DNA of 43,809 nt. Source: Candidatus Iainarchaeum sp. GTDB lineage: Archaea > Iainarchaeota > Iainarchaeia > JAGGVJ01. Below are positions 9,396-36,548 of the stretch, in pieces. Below the pieces are notes generated by a model. That model ran no database searches and had not been told where the DNA came from. It was given only the letters and a program-made list of their open reading frames with translations. Position numbers and translations under genes: made by a program. Numbering within the stretch: position 1 is the first letter of the stretch; the number at the start of each line of letters is the position of its first letter. The stretch spans positions 1 to 43,809 of the forward strand of contig JAGGVJ010000038.1 of the NCBI GenBank assembly GCA_021158055.1. The letters are read 5' to 3'.

Positions 9396-9740
9396 ATGGT
9401 GTTTGACAGCAAGGGTCTGAACCACATAAGAAAAAGGCGAAACGGTTACATAGATTACGAAAAGTACCCGCATCCTAACAAGTGGATGAAAATCATTGAC
9501 AAAATTGTGATTTTTAGTGGTTTTGCGGGTTTTTTGATTACCCTGCCGCAAATAACACGCATCTGGATTGACAATGTAACCGCGGGTGTGTCGCTTGTTT
9601 CCTGGATGGGTTATTTTGTGATTGCGGTTACCTGGATAATTTACGGGCTGGTGCACAAGGAAAAGTCAATTATAATCACAAATGTGTTGTGGGTTTTGGC
9701 CCACACCATGATAATTGTGGGACTTTTGATTTACGGGTAA
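9396..9740 (+). CDS. SemiSWEET/PQ-loop family transporter
   Basis: GFAGFLITLPQITRIW...TAGVSLVSWMGYFVIAVTWIIYGLVHKEKSIIITN. Confidence 0.8.
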   Translation: MVFDSKGLNHIRKRRNGYIDYEKYPHPNKWMKIIDKIVIFSGFAGFLITLPQITRIWIDNVTAGVSLVSWMGYFVIAVTWIIYGLVHKEKSIIITNVLWVLAHTMIIVGLLIYG

Positions 9741-12636
9741 GGTTGCAGGCGCCTATTTCTTTCATGTGCTCTATTCTTTTCTGCAGCAGCTTTGGTGTGC
9801 CGATGTCGCTTCTGTAACGCACGTTTCCCTTGACTTTCATGCATGCTTTTTCTGCTTTTTCCTGCGCCTCGTCTATGGTGTCTGCAACTGCGACGATTCC
9901 AAGCGCTCTTGAAGAGCTCATGAACAGTTTTCCCTGTTGTTGGTTTACTGACGCAAAGTAAATATTGACTCCTTCCTGCGCCTCGTCCTCTATGCTTCTT
10001 ATGTCAACTTCGTCACCGCTTGACGGGTTGTCCGGATATCCTTTCGGAACAAGGTATTTGCATACTGTTGCCTTGTCGGAGAATTTTACGTCAATGTCTT
10101 TCAGTTTTGTTGCGGTTATTGCGCGGCAGATTTCAACAAGGTCTGTTTCAAGCAGTGTTAGCGCGTTTATTGCTTCGGGGTCGCCGAGCCGCGCGTTGTA
10201 TTCAATGAGCTTGACTCCGTTTTTTGTTGCTATGAACCCGCCGTACATTATTCCTTTGTATTTTTGCTTTGTTTCAGCCAGTATTGCCTTGTTGACTTCA
10301 ATGGTGATGTCGTGTGCCTGCCTGATGTGGCTTTTGGTTATGAACGGAAGGCCTTTGCATGCTCCGTTGTATGACCCCATACCTCCGGTATTCGGTCCTG
10401 TGTCGTCTTCAAATGCTCTTTTGTGATCCTGTATTGGCGGCATGTCAATCACTGTTTCACCGTCAACAAAGGACTGCAGGCTGAATTCTTCCCCTGCAAG
10501 CTTTTCTTCAATTACTGCCTTGTTTCCCTGCGCAAATATTTCTTTGCAGTAATCAATCCCGTCCTGAACGGTCTGCAGGTGTTCTCCCTGCACTTTTACT
10601 CCTTTGCCTCCTGTAAGGCCGTCTGGCTTGACAACAAATCCTGTGTCCTGAAGTGATTCCAGGAATTCTTCAAGTCCTTGCGTTGAGGAGAATATTTCAA
10701 ATTTGGGGTTTCCGAAGATGTTGTGTTTTTTCAAAAGCAGTCTTGTAAACGATTTGCTTGTTTCAAGTTTTCCGAGTTCTTTTTTCGGCCCTACTGACGG
10801 GATCCCCATTTTTTCAAGCTCGTCTGCAACACCTGCTGAAATGGGCAGCTCTGGTCCGATGAACGCAAATTCGGGTTTTGTTTGTTTTGCAAATTCAACT
10901 ATCGCGGAAACGTCATCCAATGCGCCGATTTTTATCTGCTCGGACAATCCTGCAATTCCCGGGTTCATTGCGTTCATGAATGCGTAGATTTTGGGTTTTG
11001 ACACGCTTTTTTTCAGGGTTTCTGCTATGATGTGTTCTCTCGCGCTGTTTCCGATGACAAGGATTTTGGGGTGTTTTCCCGCATTTTGCGCTTGTGTCGC
11101 GTGGTCTGCAGCGGTTTCACCTTCAGTTGCGGTGGTTTTACCTTCAAGGCCTTCGGTTATTGCTGTGTGGGGGCTGTTGTTTGAGTTGATTTCTTCTGTT
11201 CTTTTTTTTGCTATCTCTTCAAGGGTTGTTTGTTTCATTTTTATCGGGTAGTTGCCGTCCAAACACGCGGTGCACAGGTTTTCACAGCCGATTGCTTTTT
11301 TCAGCCCCTCGATTGTCTGGTAGGTTACGGTGTCTGCACCGATTTCCTGTGCTATTTCGGCTTCGGTTTTGTTGTTTGCTATGAGCTCGTCTTTTGTGGG
11401 CATGTCTATCCCGTAAATGCACGGGTACATGATCTTGGGGCATGTTGAGATCATGTGAACGCTTTTCGCGTCGGATTTTTTGAGTTTTGCAATGAGTTTT
11501 GCGCTTGTTGTGCCGCGCACTATGCTGTCATCAATTATGGCTATTTTTTTCCCTGTCACTTCGTGTTTTAAGGTGTTTATCTTGAGGTTTGCCGCGTCTT
11601 CTCTTTCGCTTTGGGTGGGCATTATGAATGTTCTTCCGATATACCTGTTTTTTATTAATCCTTCCCTGTAAGGCACTTTTATCTTTTCCGAGAATGCAAG
11701 GGCTGCGGTCCGCGAGGTGTCCGGGGCGGCTATGACCACGTCAACTTCTATGTTTTTTTTGTCTTGTTTTTTTGCCCATTCATGCACAATTTCTTCACCG
11801 AGTCTTTGCCTTGTTTTGTAAACGCTTTTTCCGTTGAGGTCTGAGTCAGGGCGGGCAAAGTATACATATTCAAACATGCAGTGAGAGTAAGTGTCTTCAA
11901 CAAGTTTTTTTCTGCAGATCCCTGTCTCGCGGTCTATAATGACAATTTCTCCTGGCTGCACGTCATCAACAAGCTCAAAATCCAATGCATCGCAGGCAAC
12001 TGTTTCTGAGGCGATCAGATAACTTTTCCCTGTTGGCTCTTTTTTTTCTCCTATTACAAGGGGTTTGATTCCTTTGGGGTCGCGGAATGCAATGAGTCCT
12101 ATTCCTTTGATTATCCCCACTATTGAGTAACTTCCAATCGCTTTTTCCATGAATTTCCGGGTTGCGGCAATAACATCTTGTTTTGTGGGCTTTTCCCTGT
12201 TGTTGACATGCATCTCATGCTTTAAAAGGAGTGAAAAGACCTGCATCAGGCCTTCAAGGTCGCACTGTGAACTGAGTGAAATGTTTTTGTCCCACAGCCA
12301 TTTTTTAAGTTCTTCGTAGTTTATGGTGTTTCCGTTGCTTGCCATTGCAATTTCTATTGGAAGAGATGTAAAAAACGGTTGCGCGTTTTTGCGTGTGCAT
12401 GCCCCGGCTGTTGTGTATCTTACATGCCCTATGCCGATGTTGCCCTGAAGTTTCGAAAGATTGTGGTCTTTGAAAGTTTGGGTCACAAGACCTTTCTTTT
12501 TTCTTATTCTGATTTTCCCGTCAAAAAGAGTCGCGATCCCAACTGAATCCTGGCCGCGGTGCTGCAGAGAAAGCAGTGACTGATAAATTTTTTTAGATGT
12601 GTTTTCATTAGAAAGTATTCCAACTATCCCACACAT
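9676..12636 (-). CDS. purF-purD: Fused amidophosphoribosyltransferase (PurF) and phosphoribosylamine-glycine ligase (PurD)
   Basis: N-terminal MCGIVGIL, SLQHRGQDSVGIAT, PRPP loop IAIIDDSIVRGTTS; low-complexity linker; C-terminal ILVIGNSAREHIIAETLKK, AFIGPELPISAGVADELE, VVKPDGLTGGKGVKV, NTGGMGSY, EYNARLGDPEA; one uninterrupted ORF. Confidence 0.92.
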   Translation of the reverse strand: MCGIVGILSNENTSKKIYQSLLSLQHRGQDSVGIATLFDGKIRIRKKKGLVTQTFKDHNLSKLQGNIGIGHVRYTTAGACTRKNAQPFFTSLPIEIAMASNGNTINYEELKKWLWDKNISLSSQCDLEGLMQVFSLLLKHEMHVNNREKPTKQDVIAATRKFMEKAIGSYSIVGIIKGIGLIAFRDPKGIKPLVIGEKKEPTGKSYLIASETVACDALDFELVDDVQPGEIVIIDRETGICRKKLVEDTYSHCMFEYVYFARPDSDLNGKSVYKTRQRLGEEIVHEWAKKQDKKNIEVDVVIAAPDTSRTAALAFSEKIKVPYREGLIKNRYIGRTFIMPTQSEREDAANLKINTLKHEVTGKKIAIIDDSIVRGTTSAKLIAKLKKSDAKSVHMISTCPKIMYPCIYGIDMPTKDELIANNKTEAEIAQEIGADTVTYQTIEGLKKAIGCENLCTACLDGNYPIKMKQTTLEEIAKKRTEEINSNNSPHTAITEGLEGKTTATEGETAADHATQAQNAGKHPKILVIGNSAREHIIAETLKKSVSKPKIYAFMNAMNPGIAGLSEQIKIGALDDVSAIVEFAKQTKPEFAFIGPELPISAGVADELEKMGIPSVGPKKELGKLETSKSFTRLLLKKHNIFGNPKFEIFSSTQGLEEFLESLQDTGFVVKPDGLTGGKGVKVQGEHLQTVQDGIDYCKEIFAQGNKAVIEEKLAGEEFSLQSFVDGETVIDMPPIQDHKRAFEDDTGPNTGGMGSYNGACKGLPFITKSHIRQAHDITIEVNKAILAETKQKYKGIMYGGFIATKNGVKLIEYNARLGDPEAINALTLLETDLVEICRAITATKLKDIDVKFSDKATVCKYLVPKGYPDNPSSGDEVDIRSIEDEAQEGVNIYFASVNQQQGKLFMSSSRALGIVAVADTIDEAQEKAEKACMKVKGNVRYRSDIGTPKLLQKRIEHMKEIGACNLTRKSKVPQLSWCGPKPTTHL

Positions 12637-32108: not shown

Positions 32109-32207
32109 GGGCCCGTAGCTCAGTCTGGCTAGAGGAATTTTTTTTCCGGCTAAAGCACCTGACTCTTAATCAGGGAGTCGCGGGTTCAAATCCCGTCGGG
32201 CCCGCCA
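32109..32207 (+). tRNA. tRNA-Lys (anticodon CTT) with 21-nt D-arm intron (32133-32153); CCA encoded
   Basis: Acceptor GGGCCCG/CGGGCCC, anticodon loop CTCTTAA, T arm CGGGTTCAAATCCCG, CCA; insert AGGAATTTTTTTTCCGGCTAA between exons. Confidence 0.93.
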
Positions 32208-32658
32208 GTTTTTTCATTGCGCTAATCAGTTTTTTTGGGTTTTGGCAGTAAAAATTTGTGTTTTTGATTTGTCCGCAGTCAGTCTGCAATATTTTGATGT
32301 TTGGCTGTTTGTCAAAGCTGCTTATCAAAACCAGTTGTTCTTTTAGGGTGGGGTGATTTTTTCCAGGGAGTTCGTGCACTTCTGTTATGTCTTTTAGTTT
32401 TATTGCTGTTATAACCGGACCGCATTGGATTACAAGTTCGTCGCTTCGCAGTTTTATTTTTCTTGCAGTAAAAAATAGGACCACGGCAGCCGTTATGGTT
32501 GCCAGGAATGCAAACACGGTTGCCTTGAAATAAAAAAGTGTGCTTGTTGACTGGAATAATGTGATTGCCATTATTGCGGATGGAAAAATCAGGAGTGCTG
32601 TTGCGCCGACCCATATCAGATCTATTCTGCCTGTTTCTTCAAAAAGAATTTCTCTCAT
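32170..32658 (-). CDS. Membrane protein with PH-like domain; 3' end overlaps tRNA-Lys on the opposite strand
   Basis: Two TM helices then KIKLRSDELVIQCGPVITAIKLKDITEVHELPG; C-terminal AGPTGFEPATP is antisense tRNA sequence. Confidence 0.6.
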   Translation of the reverse strand: MREILFEETGRIDLIWVGATALLIFPSAIMAITLFQSTSTLFYFKATVFAFLATITAAVVLFFTARKIKLRSDELVIQCGPVITAIKLKDITEVHELPGKNHPTLKEQLVLISSFDKQPNIKILQTDCGQIKNTNFYCQNPKKLISAMKKLAGPTGFEPATP

Positions 32659-36450: not shown

Positions 36451-36548
36451 GGGCCCGTAGCTCAGTCTGGCTAGAGGAATTTTTTTCCGGCTAAAGCACC
36501 TGGCTTTTAACCAGGGAGTCGCGGGTTCAAATCCCGTCGGGCCCGCCA
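36451..36548 (+). tRNA. tRNA-Lys (anticodon TTT) with 20-nt D-arm intron (36475-36494); CCA encoded
   Basis: Same scaffold as 32109 tRNA; anticodon loop CTTTTAA; insert AGGAATTTTTTTCCGGCTAA. Confidence 0.93.

Follow-up and report, generated by a model that had tools for sequence, protein, structure and literature searches.

Predicted relaxed-motif introns in the D arms of two tRNA-Lys genes of a Candidatus Iainarchaeum genome with a single alpha-type EndA

The inserts in the D arms of both tRNA-Lys genes found in this genome are very probably introns between tRNA positions 22 and 23, which would be cut at a relaxed motif with AGA and AAA bulges by the single EndA of the genome and joined by RtcB. 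Sequence, geometry, covariation and gene content were computed, and it is from these that we infer the cutting, the ligation and the responsible enzyme. The window analysed was the entire contig C33 (43,809 nucleotides); the genome comprised 1.15 Mb in 45 contigs and was 95% complete.

Borders and fold of the tRNA-Lys inserts

The tRNA-Lys(CTT) gene, with its D-arm intron and an encoded 3' CCA, was located at 32109–32207 (+ strand, as for all features of the two tRNA-Lys genes) from the sequence, the Rfam tRNA model and a deletion search. The Rfam model gave 57.2 bits for this interval and placed the entire insert in the D loop. The gene was identified as tRNA-Lys(CTT) because its anticodon loop was CTCTTAA; the labels assigned by ARAGORN, Gly(TCC) for this gene and Arg(CCG) for tRNA-Lys(TTT), were wrong because of the insert. 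In the deletion search, every deletion of 8–64 nt was scored on the cloverleaf and the bulge-helix-bulge (BHB) geometry for all tRNAs of the genome that carried an insert. For both tRNA-Lys genes, the optimum ended exon 1 at G22 and started exon 2 at A23 with all four stems complete, and the cloverleaf score was 35.0 for the spliced form versus 27–28 for the unspliced form. Exon 1 (positions 1–22) accordingly spanned 32109–32132, and the intron of 21 nt, AGGAATTTTTTTTCCGGCTAA, spanned 32133–32153 between positions 22 and 23 in both the sequence and the search. Exon 2 (positions 23–76) occupied 32154–32207, that is, 32154–32204 plus the encoded CCA, as read from the sequence and the Rfam alignment.

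The central helix was composed of a 5' strand GGCT at 32127–32130 (positions 18–20a) and a 3' strand GGCT at 32148–32151, both supported by the sequence and the cross-archaeal comparison. Its four base pairs were G-U, G-C, C-G and U-G, two of which were G-U pairs. The 5' bulge AGA lay at 32131–32133 and the 3' bulge AAA at 32152–32154, with predicted cuts after 32132 and 32153, respectively. The inner hairpin GGAA-(T)6-TTCC was placed at 32134–32147 by sequence and folding; at least two Watson–Crick pairs were sought for the inner helix h', and GGAA/UUCC supplied them around a loop of six U in the CTT gene or five U in the TTT gene. The canonical hBHBh' motif is defined by an outer helix h of at least two consecutive Watson–Crick pairs (PMC7714728). 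The search for such an outer exon helix yielded one U-G pair followed by a C-C mismatch, and the tRNA-Lys junction was therefore assigned to the relaxed HBh' motif.

The first-pass annotation had described a 21-nt insert at 22/23 of tRNA-Lys(CTT), and its quoted sequence matched the window exactly, while its borders were recovered by the deletion search. Its statement that removal restores the D stem GCTC/GAGC also held, and the whole cloverleaf was complete after the deletion. The 4-bp GGCU/GGCU helix with two G-U pairs, two 3-nt bulges and a hairpin was found as it had described. Its proposal that the tRNA would be restored by cleavage 3' of the second base in each bulge fits the best borders. 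The designation as a non-canonical BHB-type intron was likewise borne out, since the outer helix was absent and the register and bulges were conserved with covariation in other phyla. The annotation was right about tRNA-Lys(CTT) and overlooked the sister copy in tRNA-Lys(TTT).

This second gene was located at 36451–36548 (Rfam, sequence and deletion search) and carried the same intron at 36475–36494 (sequence and deletion search), with 20 nt and T7 instead of T8; its insert was that of tRNA-Lys(CTT) minus one T. A third or intron-less tRNA-Lys was not found in the 95%-complete genome, which contained these two genes only, both with the insert. Hence, both intron-bearing genes must give working tRNA.

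The pairing was evaluated against chance. Random 21-nt inserts reached four of four central and four of four inner pairs in register in approximately 8 per 10,000 trials. The local folding energy was not unusual relative to shuffled sequences (z of approximately 0), and energy alone is no argument for the fold. The BHB fold was not the predicted minimum, since a competing hairpin, UAGCU/GGCUA, was favoured over it by 1–2 kcal/mol.

Several further features of the inserts were observed. Runs of eight T (32138–32145) and seven T (36480–36486) occurred inside the tRNA-Lys genes, and the internal run of the CTT gene was longer than the T run just 3' of that gene (32210–32215). T runs of 7–8 are of the kind able to stop archaeal RNA polymerase. 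A near direct repeat was present at 32127–32154, with GGCTAGA and GGCTAAA on either side of the hairpin, GGAATTTTTTTTCC; GGTTAGA and GGCTAAA were seen at the equivalent flanks in an Aenigmatarchaeota gene (L063). A local duplication could have made the central helix, because GGCU pairs with itself via G-U.

The same site in other archaea and in the window's own class

One genome per species was scanned for tRNA-Lys genes with at least 12 extra D-arm bases, and the archaeal cases were aligned on the restored D stem. At least 21 distinct archaeal tRNA-Lys introns were located exactly at 22/23, two from this window and at least 19 from other phyla. The carriers were Nitrosocaldus and other Thaumarchaeota, Aigarchaeota, Bathyarchaeota, Thermoprotei, Aenigmatarchaeota and Woesearchaeota. 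By this sequence comparison, the tRNA-Lys D arm is a recurrent intron site. The earlier statement that D-arm introns are best known in Thermoproteales was thus too narrow for the tRNA-Lys site, which is used by all of the groups named.

All four central pairs were formed in 18 of the 21 introns among the matches listed. In these 21 introns, 96% of the central-helix cells were paired versus a mean of 79% when the 3' strands were shuffled among sequences, and none of 5000 shuffles reached 96%, although this statistic is inflated by related sequences. The register control, which is free of that weakness, gave only 13–48% paired cells when the register was slid. The pair type changed between lineages at three of the four central pairs: A-U, G-U, G-C, U-A and U-G at the first; G-C, C-G, U-A, U-G and G-U at the third; and U-G, U-A and C-G at the fourth. 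Next to the central helix, two consecutive outer pairs were seen in none of the 21 listed introns. The other archaeal introns at 22/23 resembled those of this genome in the tRNA, the site, the 4-bp central helix, the bulges (mostly AG^A and AA^A) and the lack of an outer helix, whereas their bodies were unrelated in sequence.

Two sets of matches were set aside. Thermoplasmata introns proposed at 22/23 of tRNA-Lys were unpaired there; their real site was 20/21, where the central helix was invariably CUAG/CUAG (L045, L085, L094, L098, L109, L113, L119, L126, L138 and L142). The bacterial matches to the pattern in the genome scan were excluded, being taken for tandemly arranged tRNA genes or fortuitous matches upstream.

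D-arm introns are spliced experimentally in crenarchaea, in the tRNA-Glu of S. tokodaii and the tRNA-Thr(UGU) of A. pernix, and BHB-like variants are cut by crenarchaeal EndA (reviewed in PMC4307357). These introns lie in the D arm as do those described here, but in other tRNAs and with an (alpha-beta)2 endonuclease. D-arm introns have also been reported in Caldiarchaeum (PMC3293823). D-arm introns removed from relaxed motifs are already known experimentally in crenarchaea, and the tRNA-Lys pair is a further case.

Conservation among close relatives was absent: a tRNA-Lys D-arm insert was found in none of the 91 other genomes searched from the window's own class, so that this genome was the only one of 92. 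The class tRNA-Lys genes examined had nearly all an ordinary D loop, and some had anticodon-arm introns. A match in one class genome (G042) was a chance upstream match, and the tRNA-Lys of that genome was intron-free. In another (L153, from G007), the 5' half of tRNA-Lys was unmatched by a simple acceptor search, possibly owing to another insert. In an RpoB tree, the class formed its own clade, separate from the Micrarchaeota, Aenigmatarchaeota and Woesearchaeota sequences. A genome labelled "Candidatus ainarchaeum" (STA_33, L041), which has an epsilon-type EndA, had an RpoB very close to that of L069, labelled Micrarchaeota; one of these genomes is probably mislabelled.

Many other tRNA introns were present in the genome, in tRNA-Ile, Thr(GGT), Tyr, Asn, His, Pro, Leu, Ser and others. 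They were mostly located at 37/38, with a full hBHBh' motif and an outer helix of 5–6 bp. The intron of tRNA-Thr(TGT) (L021) lay at 30/31 and had a 3-bp outer helix. The tRNA-Asp(GTC) gene (L030, 1501–1611), read by hand, had two introns, both with outer helices: ATGC/GCAT with outer CAGG/CCTG at 29/30, and CTGT/GCAG with outer AAGC/GCTT at 37/38. Among the resolved introns of this genome, the outer helix was absent only from the two in tRNA-Lys. Elsewhere in the window, a 986-aa open reading frame at 9676–12636 (− strand) appeared by eye to be a fusion of PurF (amidophosphoribosyltransferase) and PurD (GAR synthetase).

The splicing endonuclease and rival explanations

The EndA gene of the genome (G000) was located at C16:6355–6828 (L031, 1222–1779) and encoded a protein of 186–189 aa that contained both Pfam domains. 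The enzyme was a single alpha unit of the approximately 180-aa type, with N- and C-domains present. A permissive genome search (E ≤ 10) for a second PF01974 subunit returned only noise besides this EndA, and the protein was far from the three-unit fusion of approximately 400 aa that characterizes epsilon2 enzymes. No CSL/ASL loop was inserted between FGEKKGKK and LLLSL, where the catalytic subunits of the TACK carriers have one. In the active site, Tyr and His were kept, and the position of the catalytic Lys (K156 in M. jannaschii, K287 in A. fulgidus) was occupied by Thr, with NIRTRY versus SVRKKL; the Tyr-His-Lys triad of alpha4 EndA was therefore incomplete. The Thr was shared by 30 of 30 class EndA sequences aligned (this genome and 29 others), with Tyr and His kept, and Ala was found at this position in the EndA of Aenigmatarchaeota AUK145 (L244). 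A lysine in the Tyr-His loop (M. jannaschii position 120), which this genome and most class members retain, is, on sequence grounds, a candidate substitute for the catalytic Lys. EndA matches were obtained in 51 of 58 class genomes searched, exactly one per genome. No EndA match was obtained in G021, G027 and G045, all of family f12 of the class, two of which are 94–96% complete. The RtcB ligase gene was present in the genome.

These features were compared with described enzymes. The alpha4 EndA of Methanocaldococcus jannaschii (1A79) is likewise a single unit, aligned over nearly its full length (E of approximately 1e-32) and shares Tyr and His; it has Lys156 where Thr occurs here, and described alpha4 enzymes are held to the strict hBHBh' motif. 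The epsilon2 EndA of ARMAN-2, also from an ultrasmall archaeon with non-canonical introns, has broad specificity, but it is a three-unit fusion with an ASL, both of which are absent here (PMC12397907). The carriers checked among TACK and Aenigmatarchaeota B8_G16 had mostly alpha+beta (CSL) or epsilon EndA, in contrast to the single alpha of this genome. In four Woesearchaeota (L077, L083, L087 and L134), one alpha EndA was found, with the Lys and without a CSL, together with the same relaxed tRNA-Lys introns.

According to the literature, efficient removal of relaxed motifs is confined to (alpha-beta)2 and epsilon2 EndA (PMC6379350; also PMC4090602), and Tyr, His and Lys are regarded as conserved across all four EndA types (PMC6379350); excision of a relaxed BHL motif from full-length pre-tRNA has been reported for the A. 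fulgidus EndA (PMC6379350). Against the proposed splicing stand this published limit to (alpha-beta)2 and epsilon2 enzymes and the lack here of partner, loop and Lys. The first-pass annotation had held that a broad-specificity endonuclease, heteromeric or epsilon, was required. This was not supported, at least in this genome: one alpha EndA was found, without a beta partner, fusion or CSL/ASL. It had also counted a genome with only a canonical-restricted endonuclease as refuting the intron. Gene content and published rules do describe such an enzyme, but in our reading the intron is not thereby refuted, because the comparison across archaea speaks strongly for splicing and both tRNA-Lys depend on it, and because D-arm tRNA-Lys introns are also carried by Woesearchaeota that have one alpha EndA and by Thermoplasmata with a fused two-unit EndA (L045, the sole carrier of the 20/21 group with EndA checked).

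Three other explanations were weighed. The insert might be retained, in which case the D arm of tRNA-Lys would be enlarged and structured, with approximately 31 loop bases. Without splicing, a D stem of 3 bp (GCU/AGC) can still form, as can the inner hairpin, and the EndA is of a type described as strict. This explanation is nonetheless highly unlikely: the cloverleaf score falls from 35.0 to 27–28, C13 would face A, and the GGCU containing G18-G19 would be tied up, while the D loop is ordinary in nearly all other class tRNA-Lys examined (L153 being a possible exception) and other phyla share the BHB register. Splicing in an alternative register, with a CUGG/CCGG central helix, cuts at CU^A and CU^A and the product GGCTAAAGC, would offer four of four central pairs with three G-C. 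It would leave a C13-A22 mismatch in the D stem, fold 4–5 kcal/mol worse with its own inner helix and break the register conserved in other lineages, and it is barely plausible.

Finally, the intron might be removed by a second, unseen factor, such as a beta-like subunit, an unrelated endonuclease or a host enzyme, instead of the single EndA. The relaxed HBh' motif, an alpha EndA that lacks CSL/ASL and has Thr in place of Lys, and the missing 5% of the genome are compatible with such a factor. We consider it unlikely, because the single EndA in each of 51 of 58 class genomes makes a lost PF01974 partner improbable, the search at E ≤ 10 gave only noise besides EndA, and Woesearchaeota with one alpha EndA have the same intron type.

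The pairing of intron and enzyme

Removal of the intron by the genome's own EndA would proceed as follows. In the precursor, GGCU (positions 18–20a) would pair with GGCU at the 3' end of the intron, leaving the AGA and AAA bulges and the GGAA/UUCC hairpin. An endonuclease, most likely the single alpha-type EndA (Tyr, His and Thr for Lys), would cut after the second base of each bulge. RtcB would then join the exons at the predicted junction GGCTAGAGC, and the D stem GCUC/GAGC would be restored. Either relaxed motifs are cut by this EndA in spite of the published rule, or an unseen factor acts in its place. It is more likely that the rule fails for alpha-type enzymes of DPANN or that the D-arm context makes the motif acceptable.

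The intron alone is one more case at a recurrent insertion site, and it is more ordinary than the enzyme with which it must be paired; the value of the finding lies in this pairing. The stronger proposition, that an alpha EndA without CSL/ASL and the catalytic Lys removes HBh' introns from both tRNA-Lys and that the subunit rule and the triad are not universal in archaea, has about an even chance of being correct. Because this lineage combines one alpha EndA, a Thr at the Lys position and relaxed introns in the only two tRNA-Lys genes found, the two review statements (PMC6379350) are directly testable with one enzyme and one substrate.
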